Assembly: GCA_903842345.1 (NCBI GenBank)
Contig: CAIMLR010000004.1
Location: forward strand, 62,001 to 126,000
DNA length: 64,000 nucleotides
Direction of reading: 5' to 3'
Origin: an uncultured Myxococcales bacterium
GTDB taxonomy: Bacteria > Myxococcota_A > UBA9042
Below are positions 34,047 through 49,899 of this stretch, piece by piece (positions within the stretch are counted from its first letter, which is position 1; every line of letters starts with the position of its first letter). The notes under the pieces were generated by a model. It had not been told where the DNA came from. It worked only from the letters and a program-made list of their open reading frames with translations, and searched no databases. The position numbers and the translations under genes are program-made.

Positions 34047-34859
34047 ATGACGATGGCACAAACCGCAAATCCGCCGTACGTGTTGACGCGCCTGCTCAAG
34101 CCGTTTGAGACGCTGGGCGCGATCACGCTGTTCACGATTTCCGCGCTGGGCAAGACCGTGCGGCGGCCGTTTCGCATCGCGCTCATGACGCAGATTCTGG
34201 AATTTGTCGGCGTTGGCTCGCTGGGCATCGTGCTGCTGACCGGGGTGTTCACCGGCGCGGTTTTTGCCATCCAGACGGCCGTTGCCTTTGAACTCTTCAA
34301 CGCCAAGACGCTGATCGGCGGCACAGTCGCAATCTCGCTTGTCCGCGAGTTGGCACCGTCGCTCACCGCGCTGATGGTCGCCGGACGGGTCGGATCGGCC
34401 ATGACGACCGAGCTCGGCACCATGCGCGTGACCGAGCAAATCGACGCGCTGGAGACGATGGCCGTCGATCCCATCCACTACCTCGTGACGCCGCGCATTC
34501 TCGCTTGCACGTTGATGGTGCCGCTCCTGGCCATGTGCTTCAACGCCATCGGGCTGCTCGGCGCGTACGTCGCGGCGACGCAGGTGCTCGGCATCGACCG
34601 CGGCGAGTTCTTCAGCCGAATCTGGCTGTGGATTTCGCCACACGACATCGCTTGCACGCTGGTCAAAGGCACGTTCTTCGGCTTGGTCATCGGCGCCGTC
34701 AGCTGCTACCGCGGCTTCCACGCGTCGGGCGGCAGTCGCGGCGTGGGCTTGGCCACGACCGGCACCGTCGTCACCGCGTCCGCGGCGGTGCTCATCATGG
34801 ACTACGTGATCACGTCCGTCTGGCTCGTCGTCTTCCCGAGCCAAGGCGGATTGCAGTAG
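34047..34859 (+). CDS. mlaE: MlaE-type phospholipid ABC transporter permease
   Basis: 270 residues from 34047 (ATGs at 34035 and 34053 are alternatives). It has the MlaE/YrbE profile: LLKPFETLGAITLFTISAL near the start, about five hydrophobic segments, RELAPSLTALMVAGRVGSAM as the coupling helix, and VTEQIDALETMAVDP as the family signature. MlaE permeases move phospholipids between the membranes to keep the outer leaflet asymmetric. No ATPase (MlaF) or MCE protein (MlaD) gene is adjacent, so the partners must be elsewhere. Its stop overlaps the end of the convergent protease gene by 50 bases. Confidence 0.9.
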   Translation: MTMAQTANPPYVLTRLLKPFETLGAITLFTISALGKTVRRPFRIALMTQILEFVGVGSLGIVLLTGVFTGAVFAIQTAVAFELFNAKTLIGGTVAISLVRELAPSLTALMVAGRVGSAMTTELGTMRVTEQIDALETMAVDPIHYLVTPRILACTLMVPLLAMCFNAIGLLGAYVAATQVLGIDRGEFFSRIWLWISPHDIACTLVKGTFFGLVIGAVSCYRGFHASGGSRGVGLATTGTVVTASAAVLIMDYVITSVWLVVFPSQGGLQ

Positions 34860-35799
34860 CGGCGCCAGCGAGCAGGACCAGGCTCCAGGCGGAATTCGCG
34901 TGCGGGCTGGCTTGGCACGCGGGCGGAACGACGGTCTGCTCCGGTCCCGTGCCGGTCGCGTCGCCCGTCGCGTCGGCGGCATTGAGCTTGGCATTCTCGG
35001 CACACGTCGCGGTGGGCAGGAAGGGCTTGGTGGCCGCGCCGGTGCACGTGGTCCGGTAGATCGTGCAAATGCCCAGGATGTCATCGTCCGCCAATTGGCA
35101 TTTGTAGGTGTCAGTCGGCACGGCGGATGCCGCCATCGTCGCCTTGGTCACCAGCGAGTGGTTCATACCGAGCACGTGGCCCATCTCATGGGTCAGCGGC
35201 AGGCACAGCGGATACGCCGACGGCTGGCTGGCGCAATCGTTGGCGCAAAACGCAAACTTGGTGCCGTCCGCGTTGGGGACCACGTTGAAGAGGATGTCGG
35301 CGTCGATAATCTCGCCCGTCGCGTTGTTCGTGGTGACGACGGTGTGGGCGAGGTCGTACTGGCTCCACGGCCAGTCCTTCTTCTGCTCAATGCCCACAAC
35401 AAAATTGCCATTTGGTTTGACGGTCTTGCACGAGCCATCGGCGTTGGTTTCCCCGCACGGCAGGCCCCATGGCGTATGCGCGGCGATGCCGCCATCGGCG
35501 ATTGTCACGCCCAGCGGGTTGGTGCCGCATACTTTGGGCGCACAGCCCGCGCCGCCGGAGTCGGCGCACAAGTCGCACTCCACTGTGTTCCACGTCTGCA
35601 GTGCGCCGACCAGCGCCGCGTGCACGTCCGCGGCGGCCACTGCACCAAGGCCAGCGGAATCGGCCGTCATCGTCAGCGCCACCGCTTTCGGGTCTGGCGT
35701 GTACCAGCGATCCATGCAGCCGGTACCCACGGTTGCCGCCACCCACGCGTGCGCGGAAACGGCGGGCAACATCAGCAACAACGACAACAACGCGCGCAT
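34810..35799 (-). CDS. Metzincin (matrixin-like) metalloprotease with MYXO-CTERM tail
   Basis: 329 residues from the ATG at 35799 (GGAGG five bases upstream; the much longer open frame to 37137 is not coding). Signal peptide MRALLSLLLMLPAVSAHA. The zinc site is LTHEMGHVLGMNHS, a full HExxHxxGxxH metzincin motif, within a catalytic domain of about 230 residues. Many cysteines suggest disulfides. The C-terminus CQASPHANSAWSLVLLAGAA then a GRRRARR cluster is a MYXO-CTERM-like sorting signal, which in myxobacteria directs proteins to the cell surface after cleavage. No propeptide cysteine switch was recognised. It converges on mlaE and overlaps it by 50 bases. Confidence 0.88.
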   Translation of the reverse strand: MRALLSLLLMLPAVSAHAWVAATVGTGCMDRWYTPDPKAVALTMTADSAGLGAVAAADVHAALVGALQTWNTVECDLCADSGGAGCAPKVCGTNPLGVTIADGGIAAHTPWGLPCGETNADGSCKTVKPNGNFVVGIEQKKDWPWSQYDLAHTVVTTNNATGEIIDADILFNVVPNADGTKFAFCANDCASQPSAYPLCLPLTHEMGHVLGMNHSLVTKATMAASAVPTDTYKCQLADDDILGICTIYRTTCTGAATKPFLPTATCAENAKLNAADATGDATGTGPEQTVVPPACQASPHANSAWSLVLLAGAATAIRLGSGRRRARRT

Positions 35800-35815
35800 C
35801 CGCACCTCCATCCGC

Positions 35816-35844
35816 AGCGTAGCAAACCGGTCGGGGCGCGTCAC
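35816..35844 (-). promoter_or_regulatory. Promoter of the metalloprotease gene
   Basis: Minus strand: GTGACG (35839-35844), 17 bases, TACGCT (35816-35821). The start site is expected near 35809, ten bases before the ATG at 35799, with GGAGG between. Confidence 0.4.
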
Positions 35845-36290
35845 GACGGATCGATCGGTGGCTTTGGCTTCATGCCGCGGGCTTCCATGTACGCGCGCTT
35901 GAGCGCCTGGACGTCCTCTTCGCCGTCGTGCAAATGGCCGTCCCGTTCCGCCCACACCCAGGCGCAGCGCGAATACGGAAAGGCGAAACACGGACCGACG
36001 ATGCACGCGGTGACGATCGCGGCGATGACGGTGACGAGCGTCGATGCGCCGCTCAGGAGCAGCGAGATGGTCTGGATGCCGCACACGGCGAGTGACAGGC
36101 CGTAGCTGGCGTACATGGCGCCGAGGAAATAGCCGTTGCCTTTGTCGAACTGGTAGTTGCAGTGCGGGCAACGGGCGTTCATGTGAACCGGCGAGCGGAA
36201 CATCGCGCCGATGCGGCAGTTGGGGCAGCGCAAGAGCGCGAGCGCGCGGAGCTTGGCGGGAAGCGGGACGGGGGCGATGGCGTTGGGCAA
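35841..36290 (-). CDS. DUF983 family membrane protein
   Basis: 149 residues. Two zinc-knuckle pairs near the N-terminus, LRCPNCRIGAMF and NARCPHCNYQFD, are the DUF983 signature, followed by two hydrophobic segments (about residues 54-98) and a charged C-terminal tail. The family is widespread but of unknown function; it is often found near cytochrome oxidase genes in other bacteria, which is not the case here. Its gene precedes the metzincin and is divergent from a cysteine-rich lipoprotein gene. Confidence 0.85.
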   Translation of the reverse strand: MPNAIAPVPLPAKLRALALLRCPNCRIGAMFRSPVHMNARCPHCNYQFDKGNGYFLGAMYASYGLSLAVCGIQTISLLLSGASTLVTVIAAIVTACIVGPCFAFPYSRCAWVWAERDGHLHDGEEDVQALKRAYMEARGMKPKPPIDPS

Positions 36291-39909: not shown

Positions 39910-39937
39910 TGGACAGATTGCGCAAGCCCTTTAGACT
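39910..39937 (+). promoter_or_regulatory. Promoter of the ATP-grasp operon
   Basis: TGGACA (39910-39915, five of six) and TAGACT (39932-39937, four of six), 16-base spacing. The start would be near 39944, with about 20 bases of leader and GGAGG before the ATG at 39966. The same TAGACT and following CCG are found in the tRNA promoter at 27066. Confidence 0.5.
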
Positions 39938-39965
39938 CCGTCTTGGTGGACCTTGGAGGCCCTGT

Positions 39966-41309
39966 ATGGCGAAGAGCAGCGGAATTTCTGGCAGCGGCAG
40001 CACGCAGACCCGGCAAATTGGCCTTTCACTTGGCGCGGATATCTGCTGGGCCGCGGCGTATGAGGACATTCTCAAACGCCTGGATCTGGCGATCCCCCTG
40101 GGCAAGGACGAGATTCGCTTTGAAGTTTCGCGCGTTACCATCGAGCCTTTCGACCTCAAACAGCCCGTGCGCTACGACCTGGTCGTCGATCGCCTGACGC
40201 ACTGGATGCACACGAGCCGCGAGTGGATCAAGAAGGCCGTCATCATGGACGGGCTGTACGTGCTGAACAATCCGTGGTCGCTGCAGTCGATGGAGAAACA
40301 CACGACGTATGCGGCGATGATGAAGCTCGGTCTGCCGGTGCCGGAGACGTGGCTGATTCCGCCCAAGCAGTACGCGCCGGACCTTGTCGACGCGCCGGTG
40401 ACACTGGGTCGCTATGCCAAGTTGTTTGATCTGGGCAAGGTCGGCGCGGAGTTGGGCTACCCGATGTTCATGAAGCCGTACGACGGCGGCGCATGGGTCG
40501 GCGTTTCGCGCATTGACGACGAGGCGGGGTTGCGCGCGGCGTATGAGAAGTCCGGCCAGCGCGTGATGCACCTGCAAAAAGCCGTGTCGCCGTTTGACCT
40601 GTTCGTGCGCGCCATCGGCATTGGCCCGCAGGTGCACATCGCCAAGTACAACCCGGACGCGCCGATCCACGCGCGGTATGAAGTGGCGTTCAACTTCGTG
40701 GACAACGAGGAATACCAGCTGCTGACGGACATGTGCCTGACCATCAACGCGTTTTTTGGCTGGGAATTCAACTCGTGCGAGTCGCTGCGCAAAGACGGCG
40801 TGTTCTACCCGATCGACTTTGCCAACGCGTGCCCGGACTTTCAGGTCACGTCGCTCCACTATCACTTTCCGTTCATGGTCAAGAACATGCTGCGGTGGTC
40901 GATCTACTGCGCGGCGACCAAGCGCCCGATGCGCCAGAACCTCGACTGGCAGCCGTTCTTTGACATCGCCAAGAAGGACCTGCCGTATCGCGAGCGCATG
41001 CGCGCGTATGGGGCGATCGCCCGCGAGCGCATGGAAGCCGACCGCTTTGAGGAATTCTGCGCGAAGCACCTTGGCCACCTGGATGAGGTCGTGCTGGACT
41101 ATTTTGGCACGCCGCGCGCCAAGGAAGTCGTCGAGCAGAAAGTGAAAGCGCTGTATCCGGCCCATGAAGTCGAGCGGTTTACCGACCACTTCTACGGCCT
41201 TGTGCAATTCTGGCGCAAGACGGAGACCGAGCGGCTGGCGGCCAAGCGCGCCTGGGCCGATCCGGGGCGGCAGGAGACCAAGAAGATCAAGCTGGTCCGC
41301 AACCCGTAG
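39966..41309 (+). CDS. ATP-grasp protein (RimK-like)
   Basis: 447 residues from the ATG at 39966, preceded by GGAGG. A preATP-grasp region (about residues 15-105) is followed by an ATP-grasp core: NPWSLQSMEKHTTYAAMMKL and LGLPVPETW are typical of the RimK/glutathione synthetase group, MFMKPYDGGAWVGV gives the ATP-binding lysine, and VFYPIDFANACPDF near residue 290 looks like the metal-binding motif (D-x-N). A further 120-residue C-terminal region is unlike other ATP-grasps. It is cytoplasmic and probably ligates a carboxylate to an amine. First gene of a three-gene operon. Substrates unknown. Confidence 0.85.
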   Translation: MAKSSGISGSGSTQTRQIGLSLGADICWAAAYEDILKRLDLAIPLGKDEIRFEVSRVTIEPFDLKQPVRYDLVVDRLTHWMHTSREWIKKAVIMDGLYVLNNPWSLQSMEKHTTYAAMMKLGLPVPETWLIPPKQYAPDLVDAPVTLGRYAKLFDLGKVGAELGYPMFMKPYDGGAWVGVSRIDDEAGLRAAYEKSGQRVMHLQKAVSPFDLFVRAIGIGPQVHIAKYNPDAPIHARYEVAFNFVDNEEYQLLTDMCLTINAFFGWEFNSCESLRKDGVFYPIDFANACPDFQVTSLHYHFPFMVKNMLRWSIYCAATKRPMRQNLDWQPFFDIAKKDLPYRERMRAYGAIARERMEADRFEEFCAKHLGHLDEVVLDYFGTPRAKEVVEQKVKALYPAHEVERFTDHFYGLVQFWRKTETERLAAKRAWADPGRQETKKIKLVRNP

Positions 41310-41339
41310 CCGCAACAGCGCACCCCGACAGGAGCCCGC

Positions 41340-42077
41340 ATGAAGATCAATGCCCGTTGGTACTCGCAACGGTTGCGGCAGGACATGCAGGTGGTGCGCT
41401 GGGGCGTCATCGGCCAGCCGGTGCTGCTGTTTCCGACGGCAGGCGGCGATGCCGAAGAATGCGAGCGCTTCCTGATGCTCAAAGTGCTGGACCCGCTGAT
41501 CTCAGCGGGGCGCATCAAGGTCTACGCGTGCGACAGCGTGGGCGGCCGGGCACTCGTGGACAGCAAGCGCCCGCCGGCGCAGAAGGCCGCGATCCAGCGG
41601 CAATTCCTGCAGTTTGTGCGGCATGAAATGGTGCCCGCCATCTACGCCGATTGCGGTGGCCAGGAGCTGCCGATCTGGGCGGCGGGCGCGTCGATCGGGG
41701 CGTACAACTCGGTCGCGGCGGTCACGTCGTTTCCGGACGTGTTCACGCGCGCCATCGCCATGAGCGGCACGTACGACCTCAAGCGCTTCATGGACGGCTT
41801 GCACAACGAGGACGTCCACGCGATTTCCCCGCTGCTGTACCTGCGCTATCTGGATCCGAACGGCGATCACCTCGCGCAGCTGCGCAAGACGTTCATCCTG
41901 ATGCCGACGGGCGAGGGCAAATGGGAGGACCCGGCGGAGTCGTGGAAGGTCGCGAATCTGCTGGGTAAGCTGGGCGTGCCCAATCGCGTCGACCTCTGGG
42001 GCAAATCATACGACCACGACTGGGTCACTTGGCGCGACATGCTGCCCAAGTACCTGGATGAATGGACCCGGGAGTAG
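41340..42077 (+). CDS. Esterase-like alpha/beta hydrolase between two ATP-grasps
   Basis: 245 residues with AGGAG before the ATG. It is most like the putative-esterase (PF00756) group: WGVIGQPVLLFPTAGGDAEE near the start, WAAGASIGAYNSVA with nucleophile Ser near residue 119, and YDHDWVTWRDMLPKYL with the likely His near 224. No signal peptide. It lies 30 bases after the first ATP-grasp and 3 bases before the second, so the three are surely one operon. It may release or transfer an ester or amide in the same pathway. Confidence 0.82.
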   Translation: MKINARWYSQRLRQDMQVVRWGVIGQPVLLFPTAGGDAEECERFLMLKVLDPLISAGRIKVYACDSVGGRALVDSKRPPAQKAAIQRQFLQFVRHEMVPAIYADCGGQELPIWAAGASIGAYNSVAAVTSFPDVFTRAIAMSGTYDLKRFMDGLHNEDVHAISPLLYLRYLDPNGDHLAQLRKTFILMPTGEGKWEDPAESWKVANLLGKLGVPNRVDLWGKSYDHDWVTWRDMLPKYLDEWTRE

Positions 42078-42080
42078 CGC

Positions 42081-43298
42081 ATGCACGTCGTTTTCGTCGC
42101 GCCGTATTTCATGGACACCACGATGCGGTTCATCCGCGCGGTGGCCGAACTGCCCGGCGTTCAGCTGGGCCTCGTCACGCAGGAGCCCAAGGACAAGGTG
42201 CCGGCGGATCTGCGCCAGACGCTGGCCGGGTACGCGCAGGTCGACGACGCGCTCTCCCCGAGCCACATCCGCCAGGGCGTGGAGCTGCTGACCTTGAAGC
42301 TCGGCAAGCCGCACCGGCTGCTGGGTACGCTGGAGCACATCCAGGTGCAGCTCGCGGAAGTACGCGAGATGCTGCATATTCCGGGACTGAAATCCGAGCA
42401 CGCCCACAATTTTCGCGACAAAGCGCGCATGAAAGACGCCCTGCGCGCCGCTGGACTGCCGTGCGCGCGCCATCGGGAGATTTTGCAGCCGCAGGATGCC
42501 CGCGATTTTGCCGCGCAAATCGGTTTTCCGCTGGTCATCAAGCCGCGTGAAGGCGTGGGCGCGGCGGTGACTTTCCGCGTCGACAGCGAGGATGAGCTGG
42601 AAGAAGCGCTGCGGACGATTCGGCCATCGCCGGAGCACGCGGCGGTTGCGGAGGAGTTCATCACGGGCGACGAGCATTCGTTTGAAGTCGTGTCCGTCCA
42701 TGGCAAGCCGGTGTGGCATTCCCTGACGCGCTACGATCCGCCGCCGCTGGATGTGCTGCGCAACCCATGGATTCAATGGACGGTCCTGCTGCCGCGCGAA
42801 ATTGACTCGCCGGAGTGGGACGCGGTGCGCGCGGTGGGCTTCAAGGCGCTGAAGACGCTCGGCATGGCGACCGGAATCAGCCACATGGAGTGGTTCCGCC
42901 GCAAGGATGGCACGGTTGCCATCAGCGAGATTGCCGCGCGGCCGCCCGGCGCGCAGATCATGACGCTCAACTCCTTTGCCCATGACACCGACATGTACAA
43001 GGCCTGGGCGCGGCTCGTGGTTTTTGACAAGTTCGCGCCGCTGGAGCGCAAGTTTGCCGCCGGCGCGGCGTTTTTCCGCGGTCAAGGGGAAGGCCGCGTC
43101 AAGCGGGTCCATGGGCTGGAGCGGGCGCAGCGCGATCTGGGGCATTTGATCGTGGAAGCGCACCTCCCGCAGATCGGCCAGCCCAAGGCCAGCGGCTACG
43201 AGGGTGAAGGCTACGCGGTTCTCCGGCACCCCGAGACGCGCGTGGTTGAGAACGCCCTGAAGCACCTGATTTCGACGGTGCGCGTCGAACTCGGGTAG
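42081..43298 (+). CDS. ATP-grasp protein (carboxylase/purine-type)
   Basis: 405 residues. N-terminal MHVVFVAPYFMDTTMRFIRA is a preATP-grasp fold; then HNFRDKARMKDALRAAGLPC, GFPLVIKPREGVGAAVTFRV with the ATP-binding lysine, AVAEEFITGDEHSFEVV, and the metal-binding SEIAARPPGAQIM near residue 290. It resembles biotin-carboxylase or PurK/PurT-type ATP-grasps and not the RimK type of its neighbour, so the two ligases are not recent duplicates. GGAG is seen 8 bases upstream. The C-terminal 90 residues have no known match. Substrates unknown. Confidence 0.85.
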   Translation: MHVVFVAPYFMDTTMRFIRAVAELPGVQLGLVTQEPKDKVPADLRQTLAGYAQVDDALSPSHIRQGVELLTLKLGKPHRLLGTLEHIQVQLAEVREMLHIPGLKSEHAHNFRDKARMKDALRAAGLPCARHREILQPQDARDFAAQIGFPLVIKPREGVGAAVTFRVDSEDELEEALRTIRPSPEHAAVAEEFITGDEHSFEVVSVHGKPVWHSLTRYDPPPLDVLRNPWIQWTVLLPREIDSPEWDAVRAVGFKALKTLGMATGISHMEWFRRKDGTVAISEIAARPPGAQIMTLNSFAHDTDMYKAWARLVVFDKFAPLERKFAAGAAFFRGQGEGRVKRVHGLERAQRDLGHLIVEAHLPQIGQPKASGYEGEGYAVLRHPETRVVENALKHLISTVRVELG

Positions 43299-43410: not shown

Positions 43411-46400
43411 ATGAAGGCTCCAATCTCCAAGCTCCTCGGCGTGTTCCTCAGCGTGTGGCTCCTCAGCGCGTGCGGCAACAGCGCCACGACCGGCGATGGC
43501 AGCGGCCTGACCGACAACGACGCGCTGGGCGGCGACACGCTCGTCTTCAACCCGGACGCGAGTGACGCCATCGGCGGCAAAGACGCCCAGGGCTGCACGA
43601 TCGACTCGGACTGCGCCGGCTTGACCGTCACCGCATGCCAGAAAGCCGCATGCGGCCCGCAAGGCACGTGCATCGCGCAGAACCTCGCGAGCGGCACCGC
43701 GTGCGACGACAAGAACGGCTGCACCACCGCTGACCAGTGTACCGCCGGCACGTGTCACGGCGTCCTCAAGAGCTGCAACGACCAGAATCCGTGCACCGCG
43801 GACAGCTGCGATCCGGCGAGCGGCCAGTGCGCGTATGCGCCGATCGCCGCCAAGTGCGACGACGGCGACCTGTGCACCCAGAACGACGCGTGCACCGACG
43901 GCAAATGCACCGGCACGCCCAATGCCAGCTGCGACTGCAAGACGGACGCCGATTGCGCCAAGACCGACGACGCGGACCTGTGCAACGGCGTCCACACCTG
44001 CCAGTCCGGCCAGTGCCTGACCAAGCCCGGCTCCGCCGTGACGTGCGACCCGAGCAAAGCCAAGCCGTGCGAGGTCATCGCGTGCGACCCGACCGACGGC
44101 ACCTGCAAGGGCAGCCCCGCGGCGGAAGCCAGCCAGTGCGACGACGGCGACAAGTGCACCAAAGCCGACCAGTGCGCGGGCGGCGCCTGCAAGGGCGCGA
44201 CGGTTGTCTGCGACGACAATCAGGTCTGCACCGACGACAGCTGTGACAAGCTCAAGGGCTGCGCCAACACGCCCAACGCGGCGAAGTGCGACGACGGCGA
44301 CCTCTGCACCAATGGCGACGTGTGCGCCGCGGGCGTGTGCGCGGGCACGGCCAATCCGAATTGCAGCAAGTGCGCCACGGACGCCGACTGCGCCAAGTTT
44401 GAAGACGGCAACCTGTGCAACGGCACGCTGGCGTGCACCGGCGGCGCGTGCATCGTCAAGGACACCACGGTCGTGACGTGCGTGGCCGACGCCAATCCGT
44501 GCAAGACCAACGCGTGCGTCCCGGCGACGGGAAAGTGCGAGACCAACGCAGCGCTCGACGGCAGCGCGTGCGACGACGGCGACGCGTGCACGACCGGCGA
44601 CAAGTGCGCGGCGGGCGCGTGCGTCACGACGACGGCCAAGAAATGCGCGGACACCAATCCGTGCACCAACGACAGCTGCGACAAGCTCAAAGGCTGCGTA
44701 TTTGCCGCCGCGGACGGCGCCACGTGCGACGACGGCGATCCGTGCACCGGCACTGACAAATGCGTCGCCGACAAGTGCCAGGGCACCGCGACCGGCGCGT
44801 GCGCCAAATGCACGACTGACGTGGATTGCGCGGCGTACGACGACAAGGACTTGTGCAACGGCACGCTGAGCTGCAACGGCGGTTCGTGCTCGGTCAACGT
44901 GGCGACCGTCGTTGTGTGCGACACGTTTGGCCTCTCCCCGTGCGTCAAGAACGCCTGCACGCCGGACACCGGCAAGTGCGTGAAGAGCAACCTGGGCAAC
45001 GGCTCCGCGTGCGACGACTCCAACGCGTGCACGGAGAAGGACTACTGCTCGACCGGCGTGTGCAAGGGCAAGCCCGTGTACTGCGACGACGGCTCGTTCT
45101 GCACCGACGACTCGTGCAACCCCGACACGGGCTGCCAGCACGTCTTCAACAGCAACCCGTGCGACGACGGCAACAGCTGCACCTTGAGCGACACCTGCAA
45201 ATCGGGCAGCTGCGCCGGCACGCCGGTGGAGACGTGTTCGTGCGTCGCGTCGTCTGACTGCAAAGTCTACGAGGACGGCGACCTGTGCAACGGCACGCTG
45301 GTCTGCGCGGGCGCCAAGTGCGTCGTGGACCCCAAGACGGTCGTGACGTGCAGCGCAAGCACGGATGTGTGCACCGCCAACACGTGCAACAGCAAGTCCG
45401 GACTGTGCGCGCTCGTACCCGTGGCCGACGGCAAGGTCTGCGACGACAAGAGCGCCTGCACCTCGGGCGAAACCTGCGCCGCGGGCAAATGCCAGGGCGG
45501 CGCGGCTGTGCCATGCGACGACAAGAACGCGTGCACGGACGACACGTGCAACCCCGACTTTGGCTGCACCTTCAAGGCCAACGCCGCGACGTGCGACGAC
45601 GGCGATGCGTGCACGACCGGCGACGCCTGCGCCAACAGCGCCTGCCAGCCCGGCAAGACCAACATCTGCCCCAACGCCTGCGCGCCGGCATTCACGCTCG
45701 GCTGCGGCGCCGCGGACGCGTGGGGCAACGCCAAGAGCGGCAGCACCAACGTCGTCACCGACTATCCGTGCAACCCGACCGACGCCGGCAAATACACCGG
45801 TCCAGAGTTCGCGTACCTCTACACCGCGCCGTTTGACGGCAAGGTCACCGCAACGCTGAGCAATGAGACCGCGGAGACCGACGTCTTCATCCTCGCCCAG
45901 GGCGGCTCCGGCTGCGACGCCAAGCAATGCCTGACGTTTGACTACGCCAGCGCGACGGCGACCGTGAAAGCCGGGCAGACGTACTACATCGTCGTCGATG
46001 GCTACAACGGCGCAACCGGCACGTACACGCTCAACGTCACATGCACGCCCGCCGTGGAGACCAGCTGCGCCGACGGCATCGACGAGGACGGCGACGGCCA
46101 GACCGATTGCGCGGACACCGACTGCGCCGCCAACGCCGCGTGCATCGCGCCCGCCTGCAAGGCCGCATTCACACTGACGTGCGGTGCCGTCGACTCGTGG
46201 GCCACCACGTCCTACGGCACGACGAACGTCATCAGCGCCTATCAGGGCTGCGGCAACAGCTACGCCTATCCCGCGCCGGAATACGCGTACACGTTCACGT
46301 CGACCGTCACCGGCAAAGTCACCGTCACGCTGACGAACAAGACCGCGGAGACGGACATCATCGTGCTGAGCGACGACGTGGGCGTCTGCAGCAGCTCCAA

Positions 46401-47016
46401 GTGCATGGCGTTTGACGGCGGCACGGGCGCAGTCTCCTTTGACGCGGTCACCGGCACGACCTACTACTTCGTCATCGACGGCTACAACGGCGCGACGGGC
46501 AGCTACACCATCAGCGTCGCGTGCCCGCAGGCGACCGCGGAAATCTGCACCGGCGGCAAGGACGAGGACGGCGACGGCGCGACCGACTGCGAGGACAGCG
46601 ACTGCTTTGGCAAGTCCGCCGATTGCCAACCCGCGTGCACGCCGGACACGGTCGAACTCGCCAAGCTGACGTGCGCGGCGGACAAGGACTCGTTCCAGAA
46701 CAACGGCGCGGGGTCGACGAACGCCATCAGCAAATACAGCTGCTCGCCGACAAGCGTCTACAGCGGCAACGAGTACGCGTACACCTACGTCGCCACCGCC
46801 GACACCAGCGTGACCGTCACACTCGCCAACGAGACCGCGGACACGGACATCCTGGTCCTGCAGGACAGCGGCCTCGGCTGCAACCCCGCGAGCTGCATCG
46901 CCACCGGCATGAGCAACGCGCAGTTCAACGCCAAGAAGGGCACGACGTACTACATCGTCATCGACGGCTACAACGGCGCCAACGGCAACTACGACCTCGC
47001 GTTCACCTGCCAGTAG
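43411..47016 (+). CDS. Giant cysteine-rich lipoprotein with three PPC-like domains
   Basis: 1201 residues. Lipoprotein signal VFLSVWLLSAC (Cys near 21), then an Asp/Gly-rich linker. Residues about 60-760 contain about 15 short C-DDG-x-x-C-T modules and four longer modules of the form CATDADCAKFEDGNLCNGTL to TVVTC. The C-terminal 440 residues hold three domains of about 120 residues that look alike: an FTLTCGA opening, NETAETD or NKTAETD in the middle, and TYYIVVDGYNGATGTYTL at the end, like bacterial pre-peptidase C-terminal (PPC) domains, joined by DGIDEDGDGQTDC and DEDGDGATDC linkers. It is probably a large surface protein; adhesion is an inference. It differs from the protein at 4936 in lacking the C-x-I-x-G-x-C module. 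Confidence 0.82.
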   Translation: MKAPISKLLGVFLSVWLLSACGNSATTGDGSGLTDNDALGGDTLVFNPDASDAIGGKDAQGCTIDSDCAGLTVTACQKAACGPQGTCIAQNLASGTACDDKNGCTTADQCTAGTCHGVLKSCNDQNPCTADSCDPASGQCAYAPIAAKCDDGDLCTQNDACTDGKCTGTPNASCDCKTDADCAKTDDADLCNGVHTCQSGQCLTKPGSAVTCDPSKAKPCEVIACDPTDGTCKGSPAAEASQCDDGDKCTKADQCAGGACKGATVVCDDNQVCTDDSCDKLKGCANTPNAAKCDDGDLCTNGDVCAAGVCAGTANPNCSKCATDADCAKFEDGNLCNGTLACTGGACIVKDTTVVTCVADANPCKTNACVPATGKCETNAALDGSACDDGDACTTGDKCAAGACVTTTAKKCADTNPCTNDSCDKLKGCVFAAADGATCDDGDPCTGTDKCVADKCQGTATGACAKCTTDVDCAAYDDKDLCNGTLSCNGGSCSVNVATVVVCDTFGLSPCVKNACTPDTGKCVKSNLGNGSACDDSNACTEKDYCSTGVCKGKPVYCDDGSFCTDDSCNPDTGCQHVFNSNPCDDGNSCTLSDTCKSGSCAGTPVETCSCVASSDCKVYEDGDLCNGTLVCAGAKCVVDPKTVVTCSASTDVCTANTCNSKSGLCALVPVADGKVCDDKSACTSGETCAAGKCQGGAAVPCDDKNACTDDTCNPDFGCTFKANAATCDDGDACTTGDACANSACQPGKTNICPNACAPAFTLGCGAADAWGNAKSGSTNVVTDYPCNPTDAGKYTGPEFAYLYTAPFDGKVTATLSNETAETDVFILAQGGSGCDAKQCLTFDYASATATVKAGQTYYIVVDGYNGATGTYTLNVTCTPAVETSCADGIDEDGDGQTDCADTDCAANAACIAPACKAAFTLTCGAVDSWATTSYGTTNVISAYQGCGNSYAYPAPEYAYTFTSTVTGKVTVTLTNKTAETDIIVLSDDVGVCSSSKCMAFDGGTGAVSFDAVTGTTYYFVIDGYNGATGSYTISVACPQATAEICTGGKDEDGDGATDCEDSDCFGKSADCQPACTPDTVELAKLTCAADKDSFQNNGAGSTNAISKYSCSPTSVYSGNEYAYTYVATADTSVTVTLANETADTDILVLQDSGLGCNPASCIATGMSNAQFNAKKGTTYYIVIDGYNGANGNYDLAFTCQ

Positions 47017-47058: not shown

Positions 47059-49269
47059 GTGGCGCAACTCAGCAGCGGCTACCAACTTATCGTCCTGCCT
47101 GCGGAGTTGGCGAGCGGCCAGTTGGCGTTGACGATGGTGGTGCGGCGGACGTACCGCGTCGGCCTGGAAAGCACGCTGCTGGAGCCGCTGGCCGACGCGG
47201 ATCAACCGCCGCCGCTGCCTGAAGACAAGTACGACGGCGGTGACGCGACGACCGTGCCGCCGACGCTGGAGACCGATCTGGTGCCGGAGAAGGCGCGCGT
47301 GGACATCCTCGTGCTGGGCAAGGCGTATGCGCCGGGCGGCAAGCCGCTGCCGGAGTTTGAGTGCGCGGTCCAGGTGGGGCGCAAGCGCGAGACGTTGCGG
47401 ATCCTGGGACCGCGGCGCGCGGTGTGGCAGCCGCTGCGCAAGCACGACGGCAAGATGACGCCGCAGCCGCCGCGGTTCACGGAGCCGGAGCCGGTGCAGG
47501 AGGTGCCGCTGTCCCTGACGCTGGCGTATGGCGGCTGGAGCTGGCTGGTGCCGGACGATGAGACGCTGCGGATCCAGCGGGAGGTCGCCAAGGTGATGGC
47601 CGAGGAGGCGGCGGCGGAAGCGGCGGCCAAACCCCATGCGCCGGCGAAGCCCGCGGGCAAGACGGACGACGTGGCGGTCCAGGCGCCAGCGACGACGGCG
47701 GAGGCAGCGGAGAAGCTGCGGCGCGGCGATGGCTCAGAGGGCTATGACGCCGATGGCGTGCGGCTGTGGAATGCCGCGGCGTCCAACGACGGAACGGCGG
47801 TGCTGACGGTCGACGAGTTTGAGCGGCAGGATCTGGCAGCGCAGGCGCGCGCGCTGCGGACGACGGACGAACCGGCCAGGCAACAGCGGGCGCTGCGGCA
47901 GAACGCGGCGGGCGAGTGGATCGAGGTTGACGACGGCGCGGCGATCCTGACCGACGAAGCGCTGGCGGCGATGCGCGCGGAGGGGGCGCGGAATGCGCCG
48001 CCGGTCGCGGAGACGCGCGCGGACGCGGAGGTCGTTGTGAACAGCGACGGCACCAAGGTGCTTGCGGCGATGGCCGACGACGACGCGGACTGGGATGCGT
48101 CCCTCCGGACCGGCATCGCGGCAGACGACGCGAAGACCGCGGGCGCGCGCAAGAAAGCCGATGAAGCGCGGCGCAAGGCGGAAGATGCGGCGCTCGCGGA
48201 ATTTCCCCGCCTGCCCTGCCCGACCAACCCGTTTGGCATCGGCTTCTGCATTTCCAACCATCCCAAGGTGCTGGAGCGCACGCAGTTGCCGCAGATTGAA
48301 CATCCGCTGACGCCGCTGACGCCCGCCGATTTTGTCCGCGATTACCAACGCCTGGATGCGGTGCCGATGCCCGCGGGCTTTGCCGTGCTGCCGCGCCACG
48401 CGCGCCCGCGGATCGACCTGGCGGGACCACTGCCGTCGGATCTGGGCGACTGGCAGGCGGAACAGGACGCGCAGAAGCAGAAAGTGGACCTCAGCACGCG
48501 CGCGGGCGTCCAGACGCTGCGGGCGATGGAAGCGCGCACCAAGCCGCACCCGATGCAGCCGGGCTACTACAACTGCGCGCTGCCGGCGATGCAGATGCAG
48601 GAAGTGCGCGGGGACGAGGAAGTGCTGCTGGAGAACCTGACGAAGAGCGGTCGGCTGTTCTTCAAGCTGCCGGCGCGCGCGCCGATCGCAGAGCTGGACC
48701 GCGGGCGCGGCGTGGAGCGCAGGGATCTGCGGCTGGACACGGTCGTCATCGACGCGGAGAAGGCCGAGGTGGCGCTGGTGTGGCGGGCGCAGTTCAAATT
48801 CGCGACGTGGGAAGAGCTGGAAACGTACCCGCACCTCGTCGGACACGTGCTGGATTGGGACCTGGAAGATCGCCGCAAGCGCGACGAGGCAGATGCCGCC
48901 CGCAAAGCCCGCAGCGACGGCACGCAGGTGCTGGACCTGAACGCCATGCCGCCGGAAACGCCGACGTTCCCGACAGCGGCGCGAGCGGAGCCAGAACGCG
49001 CGCCAGACGGAGCACTGGAACTGCCGAAGATGGGGTCCTACCTGCAAGCCGCGGACGACGGATGGGCAGAGCGCGCCGACGAAGCGGCGGCAGAATCAGC
49101 TGAACGACGCAAGAAAGAGCAGGCGGACCTGGCCTGGCGCGCGCAGAAGGCCGACGCGTTCCAGAACCTGGCGGCAGAAGAAGCAGCCGAGAACGCGCGA
49201 CGCGGCGAGATTGCCGCGGCGGTTGCGGCAGGCAAGCCGGTGCCCCCCAAGGGCGGCGGCAAGAAGTAA
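47059..49269 (+). CDS. DUF2169 domain protein
   Basis: 736 residues from the GTG at 47059, which has GGAGG six bases upstream. Residues about 20-170 carry the DUF2169 pattern: LTMVVRRTYRV, ETDLVPEKARVDILVLGKAY, and the APGG and RRAVW blocks. In other bacteria DUF2169 proteins sit in type VI secretion clusters and are effector-loading adaptors; no type VI gene is present here. The rest, about residues 190-736, is rich in Ala, Arg, Glu and Asp with stretches of predicted coiled coil, and has an unusual block PCPTNPFGIGFCISN in the middle. No signal peptide. Role unknown. Confidence 0.78.
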   Translation: MAQLSSGYQLIVLPAELASGQLALTMVVRRTYRVGLESTLLEPLADADQPPPLPEDKYDGGDATTVPPTLETDLVPEKARVDILVLGKAYAPGGKPLPEFECAVQVGRKRETLRILGPRRAVWQPLRKHDGKMTPQPPRFTEPEPVQEVPLSLTLAYGGWSWLVPDDETLRIQREVAKVMAEEAAAEAAAKPHAPAKPAGKTDDVAVQAPATTAEAAEKLRRGDGSEGYDADGVRLWNAAASNDGTAVLTVDEFERQDLAAQARALRTTDEPARQQRALRQNAAGEWIEVDDGAAILTDEALAAMRAEGARNAPPVAETRADAEVVVNSDGTKVLAAMADDDADWDASLRTGIAADDAKTAGARKKADEARRKAEDAALAEFPRLPCPTNPFGIGFCISNHPKVLERTQLPQIEHPLTPLTPADFVRDYQRLDAVPMPAGFAVLPRHARPRIDLAGPLPSDLGDWQAEQDAQKQKVDLSTRAGVQTLRAMEARTKPHPMQPGYYNCALPAMQMQEVRGDEEVLLENLTKSGRLFFKLPARAPIAELDRGRGVERRDLRLDTVVIDAEKAEVALVWRAQFKFATWEELETYPHLVGHVLDWDLEDRRKRDEADAARKARSDGTQVLDLNAMPPETPTFPTAARAEPERAPDGALELPKMGSYLQAADDGWAERADEAAAESAERRKKEQADLAWRAQKADAFQNLAAEEAAENARRGEIAAAVAAGKPVPPKGGGKK

Positions 49270-49285
49270 GGCGGGGACGCGTCCC

Positions 49286-49700
49286 CAGCGATGCGCGGAA
49301 GCGCAGAGCCTCCCATTCCCCAGCGACCCGCGATGCCCCCAACGCCGCGCCCCCAGCGATGCGCGAAGCGCAGAGCCGTTGAATCCCCAGCGATGCGCGA
49401 ATGCACCCGCCCCGCTTCCCGAGCGATGCGCGGAAGCGCAGAGCCGCTCATTTCCCACCGTCCGGCGATTTCCCCGCCCCGCATCCCCAGCGATGCGCGA
49501 ATGCACCCGCCCCGCTTCCCGAGCGATGCGCGGAAGCGCAGAGCCGCTCATTTCCCACCGTCCGGCGATTTCCCCGCCCCGCATCCCCAGCGATGCGCGG
49601 AAGCGCAGAGCCGCTCATTTCCCACCGTCCGGCGATTTCCCCGCCCCGCGTCCCCAGCGATGCGCGGAAGCGCTGAGCCGCTCATTCCCGAGCAAGCGCG
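49286..49700. repeat. 33-bp tandem repeat array, copy 2 (convergent gap)
   Basis: The 694-base gap between the DUF2169 and MFS genes holds no gene. The word (C/G)AGCGATGCGCG occurs at 49286, 49354, 49388, 49421, 49488, 49521, 49588 and 49655, and a degenerate CAGCGACCCGCG at 49321; spacings are 33-35 or 67, i.e. one or two units, so about 13 units in all. Between the words come CCGTTGAATCCCC and TCATTTCCCACCGTCCGGCGA. The array shares its period and the words GACGCGTCC, TGAATCCCCAGCG and GCGAAGCG with the array at 27454-27605. It has no spacers and is not CRISPR. Confidence 0.85.
49401..49600. repeat. 100-bp perfect tandem duplication
   Basis: Bases 49401-49500 and 49501-49600 are identical except for the last base (A versus G). 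The 100-bp unit equals three 33-bp subunits, so it is a higher-order repeat in the larger array and a recent duplication. Confidence 0.92.
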
Positions 49701-49899
49701 AAGCGCAAGCTAGTCTTCTCAAAAACGCCCTTCCCAAGCGAGCACCCCGCGCGTGAGCGCGTCGGGTAAGCGCAGCTCCCCACGCCCAGCCGTGCCACCC
49801 ACCCGGCGCGAAGCGGGGCCGAGCACTGCGCGCAGCGCAAGCGCAGGCCACCCACCGCCCAGCCGACCTCCCCACCAACCGCCCGGCCAGGAAGAGAGC

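Follow-up and report, generated by a model that had tools for sequence, protein, structure and literature searches.

Three ATP-grasp, hydrolase and ATP-grasp genes of a Myxococcota bacterium belong to a larger conserved ligase-esterase-peptidase set with a possible link to alpha-glucan

The three-gene locus and its surroundings

The window, by which we mean the whole stretch of 64,000 nucleotides analysed here, comes from a Myxococcota assembly of 5.85 Mb. Three intact and coordinated ORFs on the + strand, separated by intergenic gaps of 30 and 3 bases, were confirmed at the positions given in the first-pass annotation. The first (39966..41309, +) starts with the ATG at 39966 and specifies an ATP-grasp ligase of 447 aa (AG1), assigned from its sequence, profiles, a structural model and an alignment. 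A profile and an alignment identify the second product (41340..42077, +; 245 aa) as a cytoplasmic-type alpha/beta hydrolase (EST; PF00756) with the motif GASIGAY, as had been reported. The third (42081..43298, +; 405 aa) is an ATP-grasp ligase (AG2w) which profiles, structure-sequence matches and a tree place nearest to the L-amino acid ligases (dipeptide ligases). Ribosome-binding sites are found for AG1 (GGAGG; 39955..39959, +) and EST (AGGAG; 41330..41334, +). The start of a longer, 469-aa reading of AG1 falls upstream of the promoter-like sequence.

The sequence proposed as promoter by the first-pass annotation, TGGACA-16-TAGACT (39910..39937, +), is present, within a block that hardly differs between congeners, the flanking sequence being more variable; taken by itself the pattern is at chance level, one being found against 0.7 expected from shuffles. 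The orthologues of the three gene products are 86-92% identical among four congeners, and the order AG1-EST-AG2w is kept across most of the family, which excludes a chance set of ORFs.

A CoA-transferase gene (PF02550/PF13336; 38601..39872, -) lies divergently to AG1 and had been suggested to supply or remove acyl groups. Outside the genus, the neighbourhood comparison places it beside AG1 in just one sister genus, and we therefore reject it as a member of the system. Directly 3′ of the trio (43411-47016, +) is the gene for a Cys-rich protein of 1201 aa containing a PPC domain and repeats of the CDDGDACT type (Dicty_CTDC), followed by that for a DUF2169 protein (47059-49269, +). Congeners and one sister genus likewise have the DUF2169 gene downstream of the trio. 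Just past this gene in the window is a tandem repeat array (49278-49750) with nested periods of 33, 67, 100 and 167 bases, in which the 100-base unit is identical across 2.2 copies. On the other side, a Matrixin-type metalloprotease gene (Peptidase_M10; 34810-36030, -) adjoins one for an MlaE permease.

Distribution and co-inheritance of the larger set

The trio had been described as a three-gene system; it is half of a larger conserved one, comprising AG1, three AG2 paralogues (AG2a, AG2b and AG2w), EST, a second esterase-like protein (ESTL) and an S51 peptidase, often with a glycogen synthase paralogue (GlgA2) and sometimes with GCS2. Two AG2 ligases, the peptidase and ESTL had thus been missed, as had the GlgA2 and GCS2 that many genomes additionally carry. 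Two samples of neighbourhoods were compared, one of 56 Myxococcota AG1 loci and one of 80 loci from a genome-wide scan with at least 582 relatives. ESTL, S51, EST and the three AG2 paralogues recur in both, whereas GlgA, GCS2 and FGase are encountered less frequently.

The first-pass annotation had named as refuting condition that the genes be rarely adjacent in other genomes. On the contrary, AG1 and EST were adjacent in 37 of the 42 Myxococcota genomes with a close EST; across phyla the pair is adjacent on the same strand in 44 of the 80 loci (median gap -4), so that the conserved neighbourhood holds. Same-strand adjacency was also recorded for ESTL-AG1 (56/80), S51-ESTL (27/80; gap -4), GlgA-AG2a (13/80; gap 1) and AG2w-AG2b (11/80). 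Sixty-five loci have a clear phylum label, taken from record titles, and among these ESTL is present in 56, EST in 51, S51 in 48, AG2 in 46 and GlgA in 23. Clusters are found in Myxococcota, Acidobacteriota, Planctomycetota, Gemmatimonadota and Pseudomonadota; the sets of Actinomycetota are sparser.

The long form of AG1 occurs in 56 of 189 Myxococcota genomes. S51 is found in 57 of the 189, namely in all 56 AG1 genomes and one other (Fisher 1e-47), and ESTL in 56, of which 55 are AG1 genomes (1.5e-45); these values ignore phylogeny and serve as a guide only. Relatives of AG2 and EST are present in all 56 AG1 genomes, but also elsewhere. In 32 of 55 genomes AG1 and ESTL share a contig and are no more than 20 kb apart; in the other 23, the window's genome among them, they are not so placed, and some of these cases may reflect contig breaks. 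Since the two are not neighbours in these 23, the set is co-inherited beyond linkage.

The other half of the set in the window's genome is on another contig (C28), with ESTL (L170:10052-11188, -) overlapping S51 (about L170:11185-12120, -) by ATGA, and with AG2a (L170:12232-13455) and AG2b (L170:13465-14682) on the + strand. The genome search also located a second AG2w (L171:8775-9998, +).

A GCS2 ligase joins the cluster in some loci; GCS2-CBS was rejected as a core member because it is absent from the window's genome and present in many genomes without AG1. The small "families" F9, N1 and N4 were set aside as antisense-looking ORFs overlapping S51 or EST positions. PADLOC defence profiles gave no match for AG1, EST, AG2w or ESTL. 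The comparisons establish membership of the system, co-inheritance, operons, intact active sites and the enzyme classes of the gene products.

The gene products

AG1 passes no Pfam or NCBIfam cut-off in profile searches, and against the curated D-Ala-D-Ala ligase and RimK families it scores 18.5 bits where 24 are required (Pfam), 23.7 against 262 and 22.5 against 143.4. The AlphaFold2 model is confident (pLDDT 91.3). Foldseek matches it to D-Ala-D-Ala/VanA ligases and to ArgX/LysX (E about 1e-10), over what we take, from the model, to be residues 13 to 320 or thereabouts. AG1 shares with these enzymes the fold and the catalytic K, E, D and N, and differs from them in its identity of 12-18%, in falling far below every NCBIfam cut-off and in a helical C-terminal region (329-431) without counterpart there. 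K170, E272, D284 and N287 are invariant in 76 aligned sequences, a distant subfamily included; the fold, the conserved Lys and the metal-binding acidic and Asn residues place AG1 in the ATP-grasp superfamily.

The two ligases of the trio had been called non-homologous. Both are ATP-grasp proteins, although their subfamilies are distant and can be aligned only in the vicinity of a single ATP-grasp motif. Their C-terminal regions had further been thought to differ from known families, which is correct for AG1, where profile and fold comparisons found no known counterpart for residues 329-431, but seemingly not for AG2w, whose C-terminal region appears to resemble L-amino acid ligases. The main family (71 of 76 rows) has kept the AG1 region, which the short distant subfamily lacks. 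The genes of that subfamily (L069, L070 and L085, from other Myxococcota; about 30% identity) lie near those for a subtilase and a GATase-like protein outside all Pfam families, joined in some cases by an EST-like hydrolase; this ligase-hydrolase-protease set is related to the present one but distinct from it.

AG2w is nearest to the L-amino acid ligases TabS (4wd3; E 6e-12 across residues 52-308), BL00235 (3vot; 92-349) and BacD, while the LAL_C2 profile is weak (14.9 bits against a cut-off of 29.4). The ATP-grasp architecture is common to AG2 and these ligases over most of the length. The similarity is remote, and the AG2 proteins form three separate clades found with other members of the system: in a tree of 105 AG2 proteins, a single branch (SH-aLRT 99-100) sets off each of AG2a, AG2b and AG2w from the rest, and all three clades span several phyla. 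AG2 proteins also match the ATP-grasp part of cyanophycin synthetase.

EST passes PF00756 (34.5 bits; gathering 22), and S118 of GASIGAY and H226 are invariant in the alignment. ESTL is a Fes/CE1-like esterase in which an N-domain, nearer to Enterochelin_N than to CBM48, precedes PF00756. It matches both CE1 esterases with CBM48 and enterochelin esterase, and shares domain order and the conserved S and H with Fes and the ferulic acid esterases 6rzn and 7b5v; it differs from them in its ties, which are to ligases and glycogen genes rather than xylan or siderophore loci. The S51 protein, of the family of cyanophycinase and peptidase E, has a conserved WSAGAM motif; comparison with the structure database found no close solved relative.

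About a quarter of the loci hold a dedicated glycogen synthase, GlgA2. Across five phyla, the GlgA proteins of these loci group in a single clade (98/99) that excludes the canonical GlgA sampled, the latter being only 10 rows that include E. coli GlgA and second copies from some of the same genomes. GlgA2 from other genomes passes the subfamily cut-off of TIGR02095 (536.6 against 328.45), and its catalytic residues K15, H161 and E377 are invariant in 20 sequences; it is a second copy in several genomes and operonic with AG2a. Of the 80 loci, 6 contain GlgC, 5 GlgP and 3 GlgB, where a rough estimate gives about 0.4 as expected. Eighteen of the 56 AG1 Myxococcota genomes carry GlgA2, as opposed to 3 of the 133 others (G037, G090 and G165), in which the paralogue exists apart from the ligase system. 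It is absent from the window's genome and its family, and the GlgA of this genome is canonical (40% identity). Because 38 of the 56 AG1 genomes, the window's included, are without GlgA2, and three GlgA2 genomes are without AG1, the glucan link may be physiological or indirect rather than chemical.

Possible product of the system

As a set the genes match, provisionally, no known system that we found, the enzyme classes themselves being known; no description of the set turned up in the open literature that was searched. The first-pass annotation likewise recognised no named pathway. Its suggestion of an amide or peptide product remains the natural reading, the relatives of AG2 being dipeptide ligases and the fold of AG1 being like those of Ddl/VanA and ArgX/LysX. 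ATP-grasp enzymes can alternatively be kinases or form thioesters.

From enzyme classes and gene context we tentatively put forward, while regarding it as somewhat doubtful, a cytoplasmic multi-enzyme system in which the ligases make a peptide-like moiety that is ester-linked to, or turned over with, alpha-glucan. The ATP-grasp ligases would assemble this short moiety from amino acids, or from other amino or carboxylic acids, each bond having a ligase of its own. The moiety would be ester-linked to an alpha-1,4-glucan, or be carried along and turned over with it; the glucan itself would be the product of GlgA2 or, in genomes that lack GlgA2, such as the window's, of ordinary GlgA. ESTL, with its CE1-type domain and Enterochelin_N/CBM48-like N-domain, and EST might make or break the ester, their role as esterases, rather than transferases or amidases, being putative; the S51 peptidase might cut the peptide or isopeptide bond, so that the moiety is transferred or freed and the store is loaded and unloaded. 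The presence in the set, in many lineages, of a dedicated glycogen synthase and of a CE1/CBM48-like esterase is the reason for supposing that the product meets alpha-glucan metabolism. The main weakness of this proposal is the lack of GlgA2 in two thirds of the AG1-bearing Myxococcota; the greater closeness of the ESTL N-domain to Enterochelin_N than to CBM48 also speaks against it.

The main competing explanation is a free small peptide or amide metabolite (a nitrogen store, osmolyte or redox compound, following a cyanophycin-like logic) that the ligases would produce and that S51 and the esterases would break down, with glycogen genes adjoining only as storage or starvation functions. The matches of AG2 to L-amino acid ligases and to cyanophycin synthetase, the S51 family, the GCS2 ligase of some loci and the lack of GlgA2 in the window's genome are all consistent with it, but the dedicated operonic GlgA2 clade and two esterases, one of them Enterochelin_N/CBM48-like, are left unexplained, and we consider it possible though on the unlikely side. 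The cyanophycin synthetase/cyanophycinase pair does share the logic of an ATP-grasp ligase and an S51 peptidase with the present loci; these differ in that no CphA-like gene was noticed, the ligases are four separate ones and S51 is without a close solved relative.

It is improbable that AG1 (RimK/LysX-like) and AG2 modify a protein, or a carrier protein, with amino acids that S51 and the esterases later remove. ArgX/LysX, which act on the LysW carrier, are among the top Foldseek matches of AG1, yet the 80 loci contain no conserved short ORF for a precursor, as expected of a RiPP or graspetide system, or for a LysW-type carrier, none recurring in more than three loci and the best one being antisense. 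A secreted natural product or siderophore, to which the match of ESTL to enterochelin esterase might point, appears very improbable: the neighbourhood comparison found no conserved transporter, NRPS or receptor in the clusters, EST and ESTL have no signal-like N-terminus when inspected by eye, and a search for viral or plasmid carriage found none. That ordinary unrelated enzymes, each of a class common by itself, are neighbours by chance is refuted by the co-occurrence and by the cross-phylum operons, and hardly deserves credence.

Returning to the glucan-linked moiety, its fullest form would be an undescribed, widespread pathway in which four ATP-grasp ligases, together with a dedicated glycogen synthase, a pair of esterases and a peptidase, provide bacterial alpha-glucan with a peptide-like group as decoration or primer, giving a combined carbon-nitrogen store or a covalently tagged glycogen; this we hold to be rather unlikely in its entirety. 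Seven gene families are kept together in at least five phyla and, in part, in a sixth, whether they are linked or not; this is strong evidence of an undescribed pathway, the putative carriers of which are soil and water bacteria. The four ligases would be a source of new peptide-bond-forming enzymes and, should the glucan link prove chemical, the glycogen of these lineages would have to be regarded as a modified polymer.
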